From an uncultured Lysobacterales bacterium (GTDB taxonomy: Bacteria > Pseudomonadota > Gammaproteobacteria > Xanthomonadales > SZUA-36): a stretch of 64,000 bases of DNA. The translations under genes and the position numbers were made by a program. The notes under the pieces are model-generated. The model had not been told where the DNA came from, did not search any database, and was given only the letters and a program-made list of their open reading frames with translations. The stretch is taken from the NCBI GenBank assembly GCA_937924405.1, contig CALDVW010000043.1, positions 1 to 64,000 of the forward strand, written 5' to 3'. Shown piece by piece: positions 54,785-64,000 of this stretch (the first letter of the stretch is position 1; the number at the start of each line of letters is the position of its first letter).

Positions 54785-55009
54785 TTACGTCTTGCGAAGA
54801 AGGAACTTGTAAACACCACCTTCTTCGCTGTGCTCTACCAACTCGTTACCGGTCGTGCGGCAAAAAGCCTGGAAATCGGCCACGGCGCCGGGATCGGTCG
54901 CCAGAATCTCCAGCGTTCCGCCATCGGGTACTTCCTTGAGCGCCTTCTTGGCTTTAAGGATAGGGAGAGGACAGTTCAGTCCTTTTGCGTCGAGTACTTT
55001 ATCAGCCAT
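54785..55009 (-). CDS. tusA: Sulfur carrier protein TusA
   Basis: 74 residues from ATG 55009. The motif LNCPLPILKAKKAL with Cys13 is the sulfur-carrying site. In sulfur oxidisers TusA takes persulfide from a rhodanese or DsrE-type protein and passes it to sHdr or rDsr. It is 34 bases behind dsrE2 on the same strand, the known rhd-tusA-dsrE2 arrangement without the cytoplasmic rhodanese. Confidence 0.93.
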   Translation of the reverse strand: MADKVLDAKGLNCPLPILKAKKALKEVPDGGTLEILATDPGAVADFQAFCRTTGNELVEHSEEGGVYKFLLRKT

Positions 55010-55043
55010 ATTGGTTTCCTGATTGGTGAAAATGTTTGTACTT

Positions 55044-55553
55044 TTAAATGAACAGGTTGATGTGCGATTGGGTCGCCACTTCGATATACGTAGCCGCGCC
55101 ACCTATTTCAATTCCGTCGATCATGTCTTCATGTTTGTATTCGAAGAGGTCCATGGTCATTTGGCAGCCAATCAGGCGGACGTCGGCTTCAACAGCCAGA
55201 TCTCTCAGCTCGTCGATGGAAGCCACGCCTTTATTTTTGATCATGTTCTTCATCATCTTGGTGGCCATGGCGTCGACACCGGGAATGGCAGCAACGATGT
55301 TGGGCATGACCATGTGTTTTCCCATCATCGGCATTTTCATCGCCGCATTGCCCAGTGGCGTAACATTCAGGTCCAATTTCTTGAGCAACAGGGGCAGGCC
55401 GTAGAAGGTAAAGAACATCGTGACATCCAGGCCCATCGCTGCAGCCGTTGTACTCAGGATAAAGGGCGGATAAGCCCAGTCCAGGCTTCCCTTTGTAACA
55501 ATAATGGACATGGTATTTGGATTGATGGCGTTGCCGCCTGTTTCTTCTGACAT
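55044..55553 (-). CDS. dsrE2: DsrE2-type membrane-associated sulfurtransferase
   Basis: 169 residues of the DsrE/DsrF-like fold. The region IIVTKGSLDWAYPPFILST and TAAAMGLDVTMFFTFYGL is characteristic, with hydrophobic segments, and Cys130 sits in LIGCQMTMDLF, a position conserved in DsrE2. Thought to exchange sulfane sulfur with TusA near the membrane. Divergent from the HDAC-led operon. Confidence 0.88.
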   Translation of the reverse strand: MSEETGGNAINPNTMSIIVTKGSLDWAYPPFILSTTAAAMGLDVTMFFTFYGLPLLLKKLDLNVTPLGNAAMKMPMMGKHMVMPNIVAAIPGVDAMATKMMKNMIKNKGVASIDELRDLAVEADVRLIGCQMTMDLFEYKHEDMIDGIEIGGAATYIEVATQSHINLFI

Positions 55554-55645: not shown

Positions 55646-56782
55646 ATGGACCGGATCGGTAAAAATTCCTTTCACATCAAACAAAAACAGTCGCTATTTG
55701 TCGGCAGCGATGTGTACAGGGAGGCCGCCTTCGGACAGCATCACCCGCTTTCCATAATTCGGGTTGCCGGCGTAGTCGATATCTGTGAAATGCTCGGATG
55801 GTTCGAAGCGGAACAGTTTCGGGAAAGTCCGCGCGCAACCGTGGAACAACTGCGTCAATTTCACGATGAAGACTATATCGAAGCAATAAGGGCCGCCGAT
55901 GAAAAGGGCAGCGTGGATAAGGAAATTCGTGACCGTTACCGGATCGGTACGATGGAGAATCCGCTTTTCCGGGGTCTGTACAAACGGGCCACGACAGCGG
56001 TCGGCGGTTCGATCATTGCCTCCGAACTGGCGATGGACGGCAGGGTGGTTTTCCATCCTTCCGGCGGTACCCACCATGGCAGGGCAGACCGGGCCAGCGG
56101 GTTTTGCTATTTTAACGACCCGGTATTTTCTATTCTGACGTTCCTGGCCAAGGGTCTCCAGCGGGTACTGTACGTGGACCTCGATGCGCATCACGGCGAT
56201 GGTGTGCAGGATGCGTTCGAGGCCGATTCACGGGTGCTGACGATTTCCATCCACGAGGAGAAGCGCTGGCCACACTCCGGGCTGGTTGATGACCGTGCCG
56301 GAGGCGCAGCGCGCAATTTGCCGGTGCCGCGCGGGTTTAACGACAGCGAATTGGATTTTCTGATGGAACACGCCGTTTACCCCCTGGCGAAGGCATTCGA
56401 TCCGCAGGCGCTGGTTATCACATGTGGAGCAGATGGCCTGGACGGCGACCCCCTTTCCCGGATGGCATTGAGTAACGTCGGGTTGTGGTCTGCCGTGGAA
56501 AAACTGCTTCGATTGTGCGAACGCACGGTCGTACTGGGAGGTGGTGGTTATAATCCCTGGACCGTTGTACGCTGTTGGGGTGGCCTCTGGGGGCGCTTGA
56601 GCGGCAGGGACATTCCCGCTGATCTTCCACCGGATACACGACGGTTTCTGGGCGGTTTTGAATGTGACCTGATCGATGAGGACGAAGTACCGGAGGCCTG
56701 GGTAAACACCCTGGCTGACGAGCCAAACATCGGCCCGGTCAGGCCAGAAATTGAAAGATTGGCTGATCTTGTATTGAATTGA
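55646..56782 (+). CDS. Histone deacetylase/AcuC-like deacetylase
   Basis: 378 residues of the zinc-dependent arginase-like deacetylase family. The tandem His in PSGGTHHGRADRASGFCYFND, the zinc ligands in YVDLDAHHGDGVQDAF and a third Asp in CGADGLDGDPL are present, so it should be active on acetylated lysine or small molecules such as acylpolyamines. It directly abuts the first radical SAM gene of the lipoate cluster. The link to lipoylation is unknown; acyl removal from a lysine of the lipoate carrier is one idea. Confidence 0.88.
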   Translation: MDRIGKNSFHIKQKQSLFVGSDVYREAAFGQHHPLSIIRVAGVVDICEMLGWFEAEQFRESPRATVEQLRQFHDEDYIEAIRAADEKGSVDKEIRDRYRIGTMENPLFRGLYKRATTAVGGSIIASELAMDGRVVFHPSGGTHHGRADRASGFCYFNDPVFSILTFLAKGLQRVLYVDLDAHHGDGVQDAFEADSRVLTISIHEEKRWPHSGLVDDRAGGAARNLPVPRGFNDSELDFLMEHAVYPLAKAFDPQALVITCGADGLDGDPLSRMALSNVGLWSAVEKLLRLCERTVVLGGGGYNPWTVVRCWGGLWGRLSGRDIPADLPPDTRRFLGGFECDLIDEDEVPEAWVNTLADEPNIGPVRPEIERLADLVLN

Positions 56783-56800
56783 TTGAATCCGGAAATTGAT

Positions 56801-57853
56801 ATGGCATGGCTTGAATCTTTAAAAGAAATTGAAGAACTTGAGGACGCCGAATTCGACACCGCACTGGTGGCCGAAATGGAACAGTTCGCCTCATTGAATC
56901 CGGATCGCATGGTTCGTTTCTCGACCCCCACCTTCAAGGAGTACGAGAGCAGTGAGCTTGAAGGCTGCGGTAAAAATACTTTTCCGGCCTTTTCCATTAC
57001 CGCAGGCGGCTGTGCACTGATGTGTGACCATTGCGAGGCCCGCATTCTAGAACCCATGATTCCGGCAACGAAGCCGGAAATGCTGGATCGAAAAGTCAGG
57101 CAACTGATCGCAACAGAAAATCTGCAGGGCTTCCTTCTGTCGGGCGGCTCCAACAGGAAAAACGAGATACGTTATACCCGCTTTTATCCCGTTGTAGAGC
57201 AGCTCAAACGCGACTTCCCGCATTTACGCATTGCGATTCACACGGCACTGACCGATGCAGCCGGGGCGAAGGAAATGGAAGCGGCCGGGGTCGACGTGGC
57301 TATGCTCGATATCATCGGCGCACAGGAAACGATCCGCGAGGTCTATCACCTGGACCGGCCGGTTGAAGACTTCGAGAAAACAGTGGAAGCGCTGTGCGCG
57401 ACCTCCATGCAAATCTCCCCTCATATCGTGATTGGCTTGCACTACGGCAGAATCCTCGGTGAACAGAATGCGCTTGATATTCTTAGCCGTCATGACACGA
57501 AAGCATTGGTGCTGGTCGTTATCATGCCGTTTTATGCGAAACCGGGAACCTTCGCGACACCTTCTACCACTGATGTCGGGCGCATCTTCCTGGAAGCGCG
57601 ACAACGGCTGCCTGATCGCCAGGTATTGCTGGGTTGCGCCAGGCCGCCTGGAATGCACAAGCGTGTGACCGACGCTTATGCGGTGATGGCGGGTCTCGAT
57701 GGCATTGCGTTTCCGGCAGATGGCGCCGTGGCGGTTGCCGGGATGACCGGGCGCCCGTTCCACCAGGCTCATGCCTGCTGTTCCATCAAGTTGGGAGATA
57801 ACAACGTAAGCAACAGCATCGCGACGCTGTCGCGATCCAGCTGTGCTGCCTGA
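56801..57853 (+). CDS. lipS1: Radical SAM protein, LipS1/LipS2-type lipoyl synthase component
   Basis: 350 residues from ATG 56801, preceded by GGAA; TTG 56783, one base after the deacetylase stop, is an alternative. The radical SAM cluster motif reads CALMCDHC (C-x3-C-x2-C). GFLLSGGSNRKNEIRY matches the biotin-synthase-related group COG1856. In sHdr organisms two radical SAM proteins (LipS1 and LipS2) together insert sulfur into octanoyl-lysine. Which of the two genes here is LipS1 is a guess from order; the pair call is firmer. Confidence 0.7.
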   Translation: MAWLESLKEIEELEDAEFDTALVAEMEQFASLNPDRMVRFSTPTFKEYESSELEGCGKNTFPAFSITAGGCALMCDHCEARILEPMIPATKPEMLDRKVRQLIATENLQGFLLSGGSNRKNEIRYTRFYPVVEQLKRDFPHLRIAIHTALTDAAGAKEMEAAGVDVAMLDIIGAQETIREVYHLDRPVEDFEKTVEALCATSMQISPHIVIGLHYGRILGEQNALDILSRHDTKALVLVVIMPFYAKPGTFATPSTTDVGRIFLEARQRLPDRQVLLGCARPPGMHKRVTDAYAVMAGLDGIAFPADGAVAVAGMTGRPFHQAHACCSIKLGDNNVSNSIATLSRSSCAA

Positions 57854-57872
57854 TCGAATTCTGGAGAAATAG

Positions 57873-59132
57873 ATGAGTTGTGTAAAAACCGAAGGCGCTC
57901 AACCGGCAGAAAAAGGCCAGAACGGCCTGGACTTCAATCCCTTTGAAACCATGGAACCGCGCGTGCCACTCAAGACGCCGAAGGAAATGAAAAATGGCGC
58001 CCCCGTGAAACGGCAGGATATCGCCCCGCAAGGTGTGTATCGGCCGGACTATGGAATTCTGACACCGCATATGCGCTCACCGGAATACGTGCAGATGTCG
58101 ACTGCAGCAGCCATCACGCTGGGAGTAACGACCGGCCGGATGTACCGTTGCTCCTGCACACGCTGCCTGAATCTCCTGCTTACTTACCCCGAAGGCTGCC
58201 GCGCCAATTGTGCATATTGCGGCCTGGCCAGGCACCGGGAGGCAGAGCGTGACTATGCAGACCGGAATTTCATACGTGTCGACTGGCCCGCCGTGCCGAT
58301 GGACGTGATAATTGAAAAGGTGGCCGGGGACGGCGAAAACAGCCCGTTCCACCGCATGTGTATCTCGATGATTACCCACCCCCGTTCGGATGAAGATACG
58401 GTCTCGGTGCTGAAAAAATGGACTGATCGGATTGATCCGGAGACGATCCCGGTGTCCATCTTGTCCAACCCAACCACCATGGGCCGACAGGACGTGCAGC
58501 AGCTGAAAGATCTCGGCGCGGACATTTTTACCGTGGCGCTGGATGCGGCAACGCCGAAAATTTTCGACCGCACCCGCGGCAAGGGCGTGCAGTCCCCTCA
58601 CAAATGGGACAAGTACTGGGAAGTACTAATGGACGCGCGTGATATTTTCGGGCCACAGAAATTTGGCGTACACATCATCGCCGGCATGGGTGAGACAGAG
58701 CATGACATGCTCAGCCTGGTGCAGAGAATTGTCGATCTGGGCGGACACAATCATATGTTCTGCTTTTTCCCGGAAGCCGGTTCACTTATGGACCACCTGC
58801 CAGCCACGCCTCGCGACCAGTGGCGGCGGGTACAGCTCGGCCGCTATTTGATTGATTATTGTGATGCCAAAGTAGATCACATGAAGTTTGACGACCAGGG
58901 CAGGGTTGCCGACTTTGGTTTACCGGCTGGCGAACTGGATGAAATCATCAACTCCGGCCTGGCATTTCGCACCTCGGGCTGCCCGGGCAAAGTTCAGGAA
59001 GATATTTCAGCGTGCGACCGGCCCTACGGTGATTCACCCCCCAGCGACATAGCGAGTTTTCCGTTTCAGCCGAACCGAAAGGATATAGGGAAAATTCGGA
59101 AGCAGCTCAATATTCCGCATCGGCTCGACTGA
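57873..59132 (+). CDS. lipS2: Radical SAM protein, second LipS1/LipS2-type component
   Basis: 419 residues, preceded by GGAGA. The radical SAM motif CRANCAYC (Cys109, Cys113, Cys116) is intact. A second cysteine group CSCTRC (93-98) precedes it and two further cysteines (TSGCPG, SACDRP) lie near the C terminus; these could hold an auxiliary cluster acting as sulfur donor, as in lipoyl synthase and biotin synthase. Resembles the COG2516 biotin-synthase-related group. Adjacent to its partner (19 bases) and to the lipoate ligase. Confidence 0.72.
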   Translation: MSCVKTEGAQPAEKGQNGLDFNPFETMEPRVPLKTPKEMKNGAPVKRQDIAPQGVYRPDYGILTPHMRSPEYVQMSTAAAITLGVTTGRMYRCSCTRCLNLLLTYPEGCRANCAYCGLARHREAERDYADRNFIRVDWPAVPMDVIIEKVAGDGENSPFHRMCISMITHPRSDEDTVSVLKKWTDRIDPETIPVSILSNPTTMGRQDVQQLKDLGADIFTVALDAATPKIFDRTRGKGVQSPHKWDKYWEVLMDARDIFGPQKFGVHIIAGMGETEHDMLSLVQRIVDLGGHNHMFCFFPEAGSLMDHLPATPRDQWRRVQLGRYLIDYCDAKVDHMKFDDQGRVADFGLPAGELDEIINSGLAFRTSGCPGKVQEDISACDRPYGDSPPSDIASFPFQPNRKDIGKIRKQLNIPHRLD

Positions 59133-59148: not shown

Positions 59149-60216
59149 ATGGCGGCGTATTTTCGCGTACTCGACACAGGCGTCCTGGAAGGGCGTCTCA
59201 ATATTGCTATCGGGCAGGCAATCGTAGAGGCTCACCAGTCCGGCAAGGCGCCCGACACCCTTCGGTTTCTGCGCTTTCCTCCCACCGCCCTGGTGGGCCG
59301 TCACCAGGCCCTGGGCCAGGAAATAGACCTGGACTACTGCGGTGAACATGGCATTGGCGTGGTGCGCCGGATAACCGGTGGCGGCGCAATATTCATGGAG
59401 CCGGGGCTGTTGGGCTGGGAGCTTGCCTTCGATCGCAAAACACTCGGCATTAAATCCCTTCCTGAACTTACCAGGGAAATTTGCGAGGCTGCTGCCGATG
59501 GCATCAGCCGCCTCGGGGTTGATGCCAGGTTCAGACCCCGAAATGATATTGAGGTAGATGGGCGCAAAATTAGCGGAACCGGGGGTTTTTTCGACGGAGA
59601 TACGCTCTTTTACCAGGGAACAGTCCTGGTTGACATGGATCCCGGTGTGATGGTTTCTGCTTTGCGAGTGCCTAAAGCCAAGCTGGCCAAGCGCGAACTC
59701 GACTCCGCCGAACAGCGCGTCGTCACCTTGCGGGAACTGCTGGGAGACAACACCCCTGGCCTGCCGGAAATCCAGGCGGCACTCACCGCAGCGTTTGCAG
59801 ACCGGTTCGGCCTGGAAATGCGGCCTGGCAGCCTTAGCAAGGAAGAGCGGTTGAGCGCCGATAAATTTTACCAGGAAGAGATCGGCACCGACGAATTTGT
59901 CAGGGAGATCGAAGAACCGCCACGGGCGCGTGGCGATCTCGAAGGCCGTCATACCAGTCCGGGTGGCACCATTACTACCTACCTGCGTCTTGAGGGGCCG
60001 GCTCAAAACCGCGTGCGGGGAGCGCTGATTACCGGTGATTTCTTCATTACGCCGCCGCGAATCATATATGACCTGGAGTCACGCTTACGTGGCCTTTACC
60101 TGGACGATCTCGCAGAGGCAATCAGGAATTTTTTCCAGGATACAGACGTTGAAGTACTGTCTGTATCGACCGATGACTTCATTGCATCCATCGAGAACGC
60201 GCTGGCGCCCGGATGA
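59149..60216 (+). CDS. Lipoate-protein ligase (sLpl type)
   Basis: 355 residues: LplA-like catalytic domain followed by the smaller accessory domain in one chain. The motifs RRITGGGA (73-80), N-D and Lys140 in RNDIEVDGRKISGTGG are those that bind lipoyl-AMP. In sHdr clusters this enzyme (sLplA) attaches octanoate or lipoate to the lipoate-binding protein LbpA, which carries sulfur through the pathway. lbpA itself is not in view and may lie beyond the right edge. Overlaps the next gene by 4 bases (ATGA). Confidence 0.85.
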   Translation: MAAYFRVLDTGVLEGRLNIAIGQAIVEAHQSGKAPDTLRFLRFPPTALVGRHQALGQEIDLDYCGEHGIGVVRRITGGGAIFMEPGLLGWELAFDRKTLGIKSLPELTREICEAAADGISRLGVDARFRPRNDIEVDGRKISGTGGFFDGDTLFYQGTVLVDMDPGVMVSALRVPKAKLAKRELDSAEQRVVTLRELLGDNTPGLPEIQAALTAAFADRFGLEMRPGSLSKEERLSADKFYQEEIGTDEFVREIEEPPRARGDLEGRHTSPGGTITTYLRLEGPAQNRVRGALITGDFFITPPRIIYDLESRLRGLYLDDLAEAIRNFFQDTDVEVLSVSTDDFIASIENALAPG

Positions 60217-60935
60217 ATATCCTCAACGTCGTGCAGCACACCTCGGCCGATTACCTTGGCCTGATGGAAGATCACCTGGAAGGGCGGCGGATCCGGTTCA
60301 GTTATTTTCGACCTTTCACGGAGCAGGGCAGAATTCCGCAGGCGGGTGATGTCTGTGACGGCCTGGTGTTGCTGGGAGGCGGACCATGGGGCAGTGCGGG
60401 TGGCCGCGATGTTCCAACCCTGGAGGATGAGATCCGCCTGACCCGGGCCATGCTGGACCAGGGTAAACCGGTCATAGGTGTCGGTCTCGGTGCACAGATA
60501 TTGGCGATAGCCGGCAACGGCGGGTCCATGCAGGCTGAGTTGGAGTTTGAAGTCGGCTACGCGCGGCGTGTCCAGCCGGAAGCTCTCGGCGGTTTTATGC
60601 CGGAAAGATTCCCACATATCAGCTATATGCGCGACCGGCCGGTGTTGCCGCCGGAGGCCCTGGTTCTGGCAGTAGACGAAGCGGAAAGGCCGGCTGTTTT
60701 CCAGTTGGGCACGAACGCGGTGGGCTTTGTCGGTCATCCAGGTTTCAAGACAGCGATGGCGGAAGACCTGATTATGGAGTTCGAGGAATGCCCGGATGAC
60801 CCAACTCCTCAGCTTGAACGTTTGCAGCTCATGATGCGGGATGTTGAGGATGCCCTGGTTTCTTTGATGACCGGGATCATAAAGGTCACCGGTTTGATGC
60901 AATCAAAGCGGCGGATTCCGCTTAAACTGGCGTAA
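60213..60935 (+). CDS. Class I glutamine amidotransferase-like protein lacking catalytic Cys and Glu
   Basis: 240 residues with the GATase1 fold: LVLLGGGPWGS, then the nucleophile elbow KPVIGVGLGAQILAIAG and the late FVGHPGFKTAM. In active enzymes the elbow reads G-x-C-x-G-x-Q and the late motif H-P-E. Here Gly91 replaces the Cys and Gly177 replaces the Glu, while His175 remains. Hydrolysis of glutamine is therefore not expected. Glutamine-amidotransferase-like genes are known in sHdr/lipoate clusters; the role here may be structural or binding. Coupled to the ligase by a 4-base overlap. Confidence 0.82.
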   Translation: MNILNVVQHTSADYLGLMEDHLEGRRIRFSYFRPFTEQGRIPQAGDVCDGLVLLGGGPWGSAGGRDVPTLEDEIRLTRAMLDQGKPVIGVGLGAQILAIAGNGGSMQAELEFEVGYARRVQPEALGGFMPERFPHISYMRDRPVLPPEALVLAVDEAERPAVFQLGTNAVGFVGHPGFKTAMAEDLIMEFEECPDDPTPQLERLQLMMRDVEDALVSLMTGIIKVTGLMQSKRRIPLKLA

Positions 60936-61128: not shown

Positions 61129-61506
61129 ATGACAGACAAACTCATCATCGTGATGGCCAACACCGATACACGAAATGGCGAAGAACTGGGTGCACCGATT
61201 TTCCAGGCCACGGTTGCTGCGGCGATGGAATACGAAGTGGATGTTATTTGTACGGCAACTTCAGGACGCCTGATGAGAAAAGGCGTGGCTGAGAAGCTGT
61301 TCGTCAAGGAAGGTTCGCCCAAGTCGGTTTACGATTTCATCAAGGATGCCCATGAAGCCGGCGCCAAATTTTACTGCTGCTCCCCCAACCTCGACCTGTT
61401 CGATATGACGACAGACGATTTGATCCCGGAATGTGAGGGAATCGTCGGTGGCGCTCATCTGATCGAGGAAGTCATGGAGGAAGACTGCAGGGTTTTGACT
61501 TATTGA
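61129..61506 (+). CDS. dsrE3: DsrE3-type sulfurtransferase
   Basis: 125 residues of the DsrE/F-like family. FYCCSPNLDLFDMT contains the cysteine pair Cys83/Cys84, the active position in DsrE3 (further Cys at 41, 102, 120). In sHdr operons DsrE3 receives sulfane sulfur from the TusA system and hands it to the sHdr complex. Head of the shdr genes; the next gene starts 45 bases later. Confidence 0.88.
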   Translation: MTDKLIIVMANTDTRNGEELGAPIFQATVAAAMEYEVDVICTATSGRLMRKGVAEKLFVKEGSPKSVYDFIKDAHEAGAKFYCCSPNLDLFDMTTDDLIPECEGIVGGAHLIEEVMEEDCRVLTY

Positions 61507-61551: not shown

Positions 61552-62298
61552 ATGTCGCACGTTCAGACAAGCAGAATTCAGGAATTCATCGGGGATCCGG
61601 TTTCAGACAGCCCGGTTATTGGCCGGGACAAGATGGAGGAGATCTTTCAGGATATCCAGGCCGATATCCGCTTTGATCATGAACTCAACGGCTGCCTGAA
61701 CTGTGGTATCTGTACCGCGACCTGCCCGGCCGCGCATTACTACGACTTCAGTCCCCGCGAAATTGTTCAGTTACTTTGGACAGAAAACCTCGAAGGTATA
61801 TACGATGCCATGCAGGAAAAGATCTGGGCCTGCGCCCAGTGCTATACCTGTGCAGCCCGCTGCCCTTTCGATAACTCACCCGGCGGTCTGATCATGCTGA
61901 TGCGCGAGGCTGCCATCAAGCACGGCATGGAGTCGGCAAAGAACGTGCTGAGGCCTTTCAGCCGAGTCATGCTCAAGCTGATCTCAACGGGCAATCAACT
62001 GTCCCCGGATATGATCAACGCCGATGGCTTCCCCGACTGGGGTCCGAATATATCCAAGGTGGATGCACCGTTAAAAGTTCTGCGCCAGGCGATTCCCATG
62101 CCGACCCTTAATACAACGGCAACGGCCTGGGAGGTCAACCTCACCACTTCGGTTGAGCTTTACACGATCTGGGAAGAAACCGGGGTGCTGGATCAACTCG
62201 AGACGATAGACGAAAACCTGTACGACGTGATCCTGGACATCATGGACGAGAAGCGGGAAGACCTCGAGGACTGGGAAGACGAACAGGAAGATAATTGA
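61552..62298 (+). CDS. shdrC1: Sulfur-oxidising heterodisulfide reductase-like subunit sHdrC1
   Basis: 248 residues. Two [4Fe-4S] motifs of the CX2CX2CX3C type: CLNCGICTATC (48-58) and CAQCYTCAARC (94-104). As in HdrC, the subunit wires electrons between sHdrB and sHdrA. Acidic C-terminal tail. Followed by shdrB1 (19 bases). Confidence 0.9.
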   Translation: MSHVQTSRIQEFIGDPVSDSPVIGRDKMEEIFQDIQADIRFDHELNGCLNCGICTATCPAAHYYDFSPREIVQLLWTENLEGIYDAMQEKIWACAQCYTCAARCPFDNSPGGLIMLMREAAIKHGMESAKNVLRPFSRVMLKLISTGNQLSPDMINADGFPDWGPNISKVDAPLKVLRQAIPMPTLNTTATAWEVNLTTSVELYTIWEETGVLDQLETIDENLYDVILDIMDEKREDLEDWEDEQEDN

Positions 62299-62317: not shown

Positions 62318-63688
62318 ATGAATTCAGGAAACGGCGATAATGGCGAACGCTTCACCGGGCATGGTGCCGAGTGGCGTGACGCCAATCTCAGTCCCGAAGA
62401 CGCGAAAACCGCCACGGCCTGGGTCGAGCAGGTCATCAATAAGCGGTCCATGGAAGTCAATAAGGATCGCGTTGAAGACGTACGCGACGCCATGTGGGAG
62501 CTGGAGAAAGACGGCGAGATCGTCGTCCACCGGATCGGTGAAGCGCATCAGCCTCGAATAGCCAAAACCATTTACGGCTGGGATAAAAAAGTTCCCACCA
62601 ATCAACTTTGGCACCACAAATCCTGTGGACAGTGCGGCAATATTCCGGGCTACCCGACATCGCTCCTGTGGATGATGAACAAGATGGACATCCAGTACCT
62701 GGATGAAACCGACCAGACGTCCTGTACGGCGTGGAACTATCATGGTTCGGGCATTGGCAATATCGAAAGCCTGGCAGCCGTCTTCCTGCGAAATTTTCAC
62801 CAGGCCTATGTATCGGCCCGGGCCCAGGGCCTGCCTGAGGGTCATTTCTACCCTCTGGTGCATTGCGGCACTTCCTTTGGCAATTACAAGGAGGTTCGCG
62901 CCTATTTGCTGCATTCCGCCGAATTGCGCGAGAAAGTGAAAAAAATTCTGGCCAAGCTGGGTCGGCTGGTGGATGGAAAGTTACTGATACCGGAAGAGAT
63001 CGTGCATTATTCCGAGTGGGTGCACATGATGCGCGACGATATTGCGCAGCATCAAACGATCGATGTCAGCAATATTCGCTCCACGATCCACCCGGCCTGT
63101 CACGTGTACAAGATGGTGCCGCAGGATGCAATCTATGATGACAACATCCTGGGTGGCAACCGGGTGGCGGTTTCCACCGGCATCATGGAAGCCCTTGGCA
63201 CCCAGGTGATCGACTATTCGACCTGGTACGATTGCTGCGGTTTCGGTTTCCGGCACATCATTTCCGAGCGTGAATTCACCCGCTCGTTCGCGATTGACCG
63301 CAAAATAAGCGTCGCGGTGGAGGAAGCAAAGGCGGATGTAATGATCGGTCACGATACCGGTTGCATTACGACGCTGGACAAAAATCAGTGGATTGGCAAG
63401 GCCGCCGGTAAAAACTACAACCTGCCGGTAGTGGCTGATATTCAATTCGCGGCGCTCGCGTGCGGCGCGCATCCGTACAAGATTGTGCAATCCCACTGGC
63501 ACGCATCAGCGACCGAGTCGCTGATGGAGAAAATGGGAATCGACTGGCAGGCCAAGAAAGTTGAATTCGAAGGCTACCTGAAAGAAGTCGAGGCAGGCAA
63601 TTACGACAGCCTCTACGATCCGCGCCTGGCGATTACTTCCGGGCCAGGATACGAACCGGTTAAGCAACTAGCCGAGAGTAATACCTGA
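62318..63688 (+). CDS. shdrB1: Sulfur-oxidising heterodisulfide reductase-like subunit sHdrB1
   Basis: 456 residues, longer than HdrB of methanogens (about 300). Two cysteine-rich (CCG-like) regions can be seen: CGQCGN, TSCTAW and VHCGTSFG in the first; HPACHVYK, YDCCGFGFRH and DTGCITTL in the second. Some of the cysteines that hold the noncubane clusters in HdrB are replaced, e.g. the last CxxC has only one Cys. The protein should bind the sulfur-carrying LbpA or another sulfane substrate. Lies between shdrC1 and shdrA. Confidence 0.85.
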   Translation: MNSGNGDNGERFTGHGAEWRDANLSPEDAKTATAWVEQVINKRSMEVNKDRVEDVRDAMWELEKDGEIVVHRIGEAHQPRIAKTIYGWDKKVPTNQLWHHKSCGQCGNIPGYPTSLLWMMNKMDIQYLDETDQTSCTAWNYHGSGIGNIESLAAVFLRNFHQAYVSARAQGLPEGHFYPLVHCGTSFGNYKEVRAYLLHSAELREKVKKILAKLGRLVDGKLLIPEEIVHYSEWVHMMRDDIAQHQTIDVSNIRSTIHPACHVYKMVPQDAIYDDNILGGNRVAVSTGIMEALGTQVIDYSTWYDCCGFGFRHIISEREFTRSFAIDRKISVAVEEAKADVMIGHDTGCITTLDKNQWIGKAAGKNYNLPVVADIQFAALACGAHPYKIVQSHWHASATESLMEKMGIDWQAKKVEFEGYLKEVEAGNYDSLYDPRLAITSGPGYEPVKQLAESNT

Positions 63689-63727: not shown

Positions 63728-64000
63728 ATGGCAAAACCGATCCTTATAGTTGGCGGCGGCCCGGCCGGGCTGGCCGCGGCGCATTCACTGGCCACCTTTG
63801 GCCAGGCGTGCATACTGGTTGAGAAAGAAGAAGAGCTGGGCGGAGCACCCATACTGGAGGGCTATGCCAAGCTGGTGCCATCCGGCGAGTGGGCCAGGGA
63901 TGCCATTGGCGGCATGGTCGACCGGGCGCGGGAACATGATCTGGTCGATGTGAAGGCTGGAACGACCGTTACTTCGTTTACGGGCGAGGTGGGCGATTTT
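63728..64000 (+). CDS. shdrA: Sulfur-oxidising heterodisulfide reductase-like subunit sHdrA (3' truncated by window)
   Basis: The first 91 residues are visible: ILIVGGGPAGLAAAHSLATF is the FAD-binding dinucleotide fold of HdrA, with the acidic end of the second strand at VEKEEELGGAP. The frame runs to the right edge. Completes shdrC1B1A; shdrC2, shdrB2 and lbpA would be expected next if the operon follows the known order. Confidence 0.85.
   Translation, partial: MAKPILIVGGGPAGLAAAHSLATFGQACILVEKEEELGGAPILEGYAKLVPSGEWARDAIGGMVDRAREHDLVDVKAGTTVTSFTGEVGDF

Follow-up and report, generated by a model that had tools for sequence, protein, structure and literature searches.

The closest described counterpart of the locus studied here is the Hyphomicrobium-type cluster lipS1-lipT-lipS2-slpl(AB)-lipX. 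Its last gene (Hden_0687; PMC10451225) was named lipX by Tanabe et al. (2023), who described the product as a "putative glutamine amidotransferase" (PMC10332631). A GATase1 gene appears in the cluster figure of PMC6067878, and LipX has been listed with the cofactor-assembly enzymes (PMC11582611); in print, the Hyphomicrobium protein is only a putative glutamine amidotransferase. Neither an experiment on lipX nor mention of a lost catalytic triad was found in these four papers. A glutamine amidotransferase (GATase) domain without the catalytic Cys, kept in a working protein, is known from carbamoyl phosphate synthetase I of terrestrial vertebrates (PMC7657897).

The lipX locus in the window

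The window is the 64,000-nucleotide stretch of DNA from an uncultured Lysobacterales bacterium that was analysed here. Its ORF at 60213-60935 (+) encodes 240 amino acids and is lipX, a gene name that the preliminary description had missed while giving the coordinates, strand and overlap with the ligase gene correctly. The identification is based on synteny, as the gene lies behind slpl(AB) and ahead of dsrE3C-shdr, and on Hyphomicrobiales orthologues, not on a direct comparison with Hden_0687. The position in the cluster, the dsrE3C-shdr neighbours and the ATGA overlap between the slpl(AB) stop and the lipX start (60213-60216, +) are the same as in H. denitrificans (PMC10332631), and the -4 overlap was also found in 40 LipX genes among those checked. 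The gene and its name are already known, while its pseudoenzyme state and its tracking of sHdr, both described below, appear to be new; no report of the latter was found in the lipX literature searched.

Upstream of lipX, Pfam and NCBIfam profiles identified the sLpl(AB) lipoate-protein ligase (59149-60216, +). It is preceded by the genes of a LipS2-type lipoyl synthase (57873-59132, +; NF053743, 185.6 bits, below the cut-off of 270) and a LipS1-type lipoyl synthase (56783-57853, +; NF053742, 186.4 bits, below the cut-off of 230). The LipS1 gene has a TTG start, of uncertain position, right behind the stop of a histone deacetylase (HDAC)-like gene. Between lipS1 and lipS2 (57853-57873), lipT is missing here and is present in L040, L068, L086 and other clusters. 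In most relatives, the lip operon begins with the HDAC-fold gene (55646-56782, +; PF00850, 238.8 bits); this gene adjoins lipS1 in 44 of 53 testable loci and also in sHdr-free clusters. The zinc-site motifs of its product are apparently intact, as judged by eye, and a lysine deacylase encoded in a lysine-lipoylation operon could be a candidate eraser of LbpA modification. No published link between this gene and sHdr was found in the literature searched. Divergent from the HDAC-lip operon are TusA and DsrE-like genes (54785-55553, -), an arrangement also seen in L035, L039, L200 and L201.

Downstream of lipX, a DsrE3-type sulfur transferase (61129-61506, +; PF13686) occupies the dsrE3C position and is followed by genes whose products were assigned by profile matches as an sHdrC1-like Fe-S protein (61552-62298, +) and an sHdrB1-like CCG-domain protein (62318-63688, +). 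The window ends within an sHdrA-like gene (63729-64000, +) that continues beyond it, and the contig carries sHdrH, C2 and B2-like genes after sHdrA (L199 3729-7414).

Fold and catalytic positions of LipX

Class I amidotransferases are recognised by a nucleophile elbow, G-x-C-x-G-x-Q, and a triad motif, H-x-E. The homology of LipX to this class is weak but real: it scored 24.6 bits against PF07722 (cut-off, 20.5) and 22.4 bits against PF00117, for which the curated cut-off is 22.8, and 64 of 68 orthologues matched PF00117 (E ≤ 0.01). No other enzyme family was indicated by Pfam or NCBIfam. The AlphaFold2 model calculated with 68 orthologues (pLDDT 89.7, pTM 0.89) displayed the complete GATase fold, with an unsure C-terminal tail (residues 233-239). 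The model agrees with the earlier statement that the fold motifs remain. In it, strand 87-91 passes into helix 92-100 at the old elbow (DSSP); the alpha/beta fold with its nucleophile elbow is present, but the elbow Cys and an intact H-x-E are absent.

The closest folds found by Foldseek and VIA-align are stand-alone class I amidotransferases, namely DnfC (8khs), 3l7n, 3m3p and TM1158 (1o1y), with Z values of 24-26. They have the complete fold, the GG(P) motif and the elbow frame in common with LipX. Where alignments were compared (1o1y, 3l7n, and 9xfs), the Cys elbow and a WHG segment are kept, whereas LipX lacks Cys and Glu and its WHG segment is altered. LipX also matched the fold of carbamoyl phosphate synthetase I (5dou, Z 18.1). 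There, the GATase domain belongs to a synthetase for which free ammonia is the substrate, whereas LipX is a separate protein with no known synthetase partner, and by this analogy the likeness would be one of kind, not of membership.

The nucleophile position of the elbow GVGLGAQ is held by Gly91 (60483-60485, +), and the segment that stands for H-x-E is His175-Pro-Gly177 (60735-60743, +; GHPG vs HPE), with codons at 60735-60737 for His175 and 60741-60743 for Gly177. Both substitutions given in the preliminary description, Gly for Cys and Gly for Glu, are thereby confirmed. It had not recorded that LipX has YMR (Y138 and R140) where intact relatives typically have WHG, adjoined by a near-invariant Asp (Tyr138-Met-Arg-Asp141, 60624-60635, +). 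Owing to this change, glutamine recognition was probably lost as well as catalysis. The conserved segments specific to LipX are QHTSA-YLGL-EDH-EGR, GGGPWG, YMRD, HPG-K-AMAEDLIMEFEE, and the C-terminal helix.

A profile search of genome contigs gave 193 relatives, of which 80 were kept, and genome searches added others. The 89 LipX sequences compared belong to alphaproteobacteria, betaproteobacteria and gammaproteobacteria. At the nucleophile position, 86 of them carry Gly, 3 carry Glu and none carries Cys, so the question of whether Cys is lost throughout is answered in the affirmative. The triad Glu position is Gly in 88 of 89, the exception being a frameshifted copy. The triad His was said to remain, which holds for the window protein (His175) and not for the family, where Asn replaces it in 17/89, mostly in Woeseiaceae. 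The picture is unchanged in the 76 sequences that are non-redundant at 90% (58 G/H/G, 15 G/N/G, and 2 E/H/G). Among the homologues outside LipX, Cys-His-Glu is intact in 35/37; the other two are a misaligned fragment and L117, with Glu/His/Gln. LipX forms one clade (SH-aLRT 98) on a long branch with L117 as its sister, and the intact Cys-His-Glu paralogues are separate.

The Cys-less sister L117 (L179 8870-9577 (-), genome G041) carries GIELGGQ and HPQ and adjoins a hemL-like gene; LipX is missing from the shdr and lipS1-slpl-lipT-lipS2 cluster of G041. G041 is the sole genome in its order, and L117 comes from that one genome.

All four Gly codons are used at position 91 (GGC 36, GGG 20, GGT 14, and GGA 11), and dN/dS of LipX is about 0.07-0.2 against near relatives, where computable; the Gly91 state is therefore maintained. 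With its catalytic residues gone family-wide under purifying selection, LipX is a putative pseudoenzyme. The idea of a decaying gene or a change confined to a single genome, to which we assign virtually no probability, could draw on a related copy (L013/L054) whose frameshift is probably an assembly error. It was rejected in view of the family-wide state and the purifying selection, along with the synonymous turnover at Gly91; homologues with intact Cys-His-Glu in the same context, which would have pointed to a single-genome change, were not found among the 89.

The literature annotation as a working glutamine amidotransferase is in keeping with the fold and the Pfam similarity. We regard it as very improbable, and the reading of LipX as an active glutaminase was rejected because it has neither Cys nor Glu; the elbow Cys is missing from all 89 sequences and the pocket is altered. 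On chemical grounds, judging from these residues, glutaminase activity is nearly excluded. An enzyme with new chemistry on the GATase fold, dispensing with a Cys nucleophile, is the next reading to consider. Its pocket would comprise R140-D141, H9, H21, and Y138, and the strong invariance of LipX-specific polar residues and the conserved YMRD in place of WHG speak for it. The lineage with Asn for His, together with invariant R140, H21, and D20, could also suit new chemistry. However, the elbow offers Gly or Glu and no conserved alternative nucleophile, the His175 position itself varies, and the profile databases point to no other enzyme; we consider this reading unlikely.

Distribution and gene context of LipX

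In the family sample (41 genomes), LipX was found in 14 genomes, LipS1 in 13, and sHdrB1 in 13, with mismatches only in genomes that are 77% complete. In the order sample (297 genomes), where LipX was called at E<1e-80 and the next best match was 8e-20, the same nine genomes hold LipX and sHdrB1. LipS1 occurs in 13 genomes of this sample: eight of those nine and five of family f120. LipX and sHdrB1 are absent from these five, and a permissive LipX search of them found only intact Cys-His-Glu amidotransferases. In the phylum sample, sHdrB1 was found in seven genomes; six of these carry LipX, and the seventh has the Cys-less sister L117. A side finding was an sHdrB1 homologue with one in-frame TAG (G012:C30:85455-86813), possibly an assembly error.

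LipX tracks the sHdr complex, not LbpA lipoylation, in a contrast that is clean, though single in evolutionary terms, as the genomes with LipS1 and without sHdr are from one family. The five LipS1 genomes without LipX also rule it out as an obligatory partner of LipS1/S2. The proposed tie to the ligase is weakened, with LipX absent from genomes that have lipS1 but no sHdr and with a mirror-tree signal for the ligase, itself a weak measure, of about zero.

Two of the five f120 genomes (G457 and G555) were opened. Both contain tusA, dsrE, HDAC-lipS1-lipT-lipS2-slpl-dsrE3, and lbpA, and no gene separates slpl from dsrE3, the usual slot of LipX. The LbpA of G457 is 65-72% identical to the best-matching LbpAs of sHdr clusters. 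The G457 module (L200 5231-13017, L203 3854-19740) adjoins genes for a [NiFe]-hydrogenase, an Fe-S/CCG protein, and DsrAB-like/DsrE proteins; neither this module nor that of G555 (L201, L204) includes sHdrB1. The LbpA of the module apparently serves another sulfur or hydrogen system.

Among the 80 LipX contig loci, lipX immediately follows the ligase gene in 70 and immediately precedes dsrE3 in 69, with both neighbours in 61. The tie to the ligase that had been proposed from the coupling of the two genes holds in this respect, including the ATGA overlap, but LipX stays by dsrE3C-shdr in several lineages whose lip operon is at another site or has no ligase gene (L181 from G370, with a like arrangement in G404; L087/L097/L106; L177; and L092, where no ligase separates lipS2 from lipX). 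In L079, L094, and L110, LipX is kept with the ligase and not with dsrE3C, and in L102/L103 it stands alone. The loci that keep LipX by dsrE3C-shdr were counted in favour of an adaptor on the sHdr side, and the fact that the operon breaks both ways was counted against it. The mirror-tree partial correlations of LipX, too weak to decide, are 0.38 with LipS1, 0.35 with sHdrB1, and -0.04 with the ligase; that LipS1 scored as high as sHdrB1 was likewise counted against it.

In G520 (L177 7689-9576 (-)), LipX lies by a second, divergent ligase (30% identity) ahead of dsrE3C-shdr, and lipS1-lipS2-slpl is on a separate contig (L178). An in-frame TGA in LipX of G370 and G404 was set aside as most likely the normal stop inside an over-extended match; the ORFs end there, at 228 amino acids.

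LipX might instead be a non-catalytic accessory of LbpA lipoylation that would hold sLpl(AB), LipS1/LipS2, or octanoyl-LbpA, aiding for example the second sulfur insertion. The position of the ligase gene immediately 5' of LipX with its common overlap, the company of the second ligase in G520, a mirror-tree correlation that is highest with LipS1, and the naming of LipX among the assembly genes (PMC11582611) are all consistent with such a helper. So is the observation that LbpA received one sulfur only in E. coli, where the genes listed for the helper plasmid do not include lipX; yet those genes were sufficient to modify LbpA (PMC10332631). The LipX-ligase correlation of about zero also argues against it, and the reading loses by the contrast with G457 and G555, which hold the whole assembly module and LbpA, yet no LipX. 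We consider it a doubtful though not negligible alternative.

Proposed role of LipX

A scaffold or binding role, already suggested for this protein as one option, is supported as its best reading by the family-wide loss of catalytic residues. From that loss, the fold model, purifying selection, strict co-occurrence with sHdr, and absence alongside the sHdr-free lipoate module, we infer, at roughly even odds, that LipX serves sulfur oxidation by sHdr and LbpA as a non-catalytic adaptor. Its ancestor would have been a stand-alone class I glutamine amidotransferase, the whole fold of which was kept while the nucleophile and the triad Glu were lost. Lacking these residues, LipX would no longer hydrolyse glutamine. 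It may bind a partner on the sHdr side, such as an sHdr subunit, DsrE3C, or holo-LbpA, and the remodelled pocket and LipX-specific conserved segments may mediate docking.

As a more tentative proposal, somewhat short of an even chance, LipX could be an obligate non-catalytic component of the sHdr machinery, a docking or assembly factor that brings holo-LbpA to the complex; it would then be a pseudo-amidotransferase taken over by dissimilatory sulfur oxidation and hitherto filed as a lipoate-assembly enzyme.

The genomes with the full LbpA-lipoylation module and without sHdr and LipX provide a ready comparison. In the sampled proteobacteria, LipX is a constant companion of sHdr. As it very probably is no glutaminase and follows sHdr, its function should be sought in protein interactions and away from amide chemistry.
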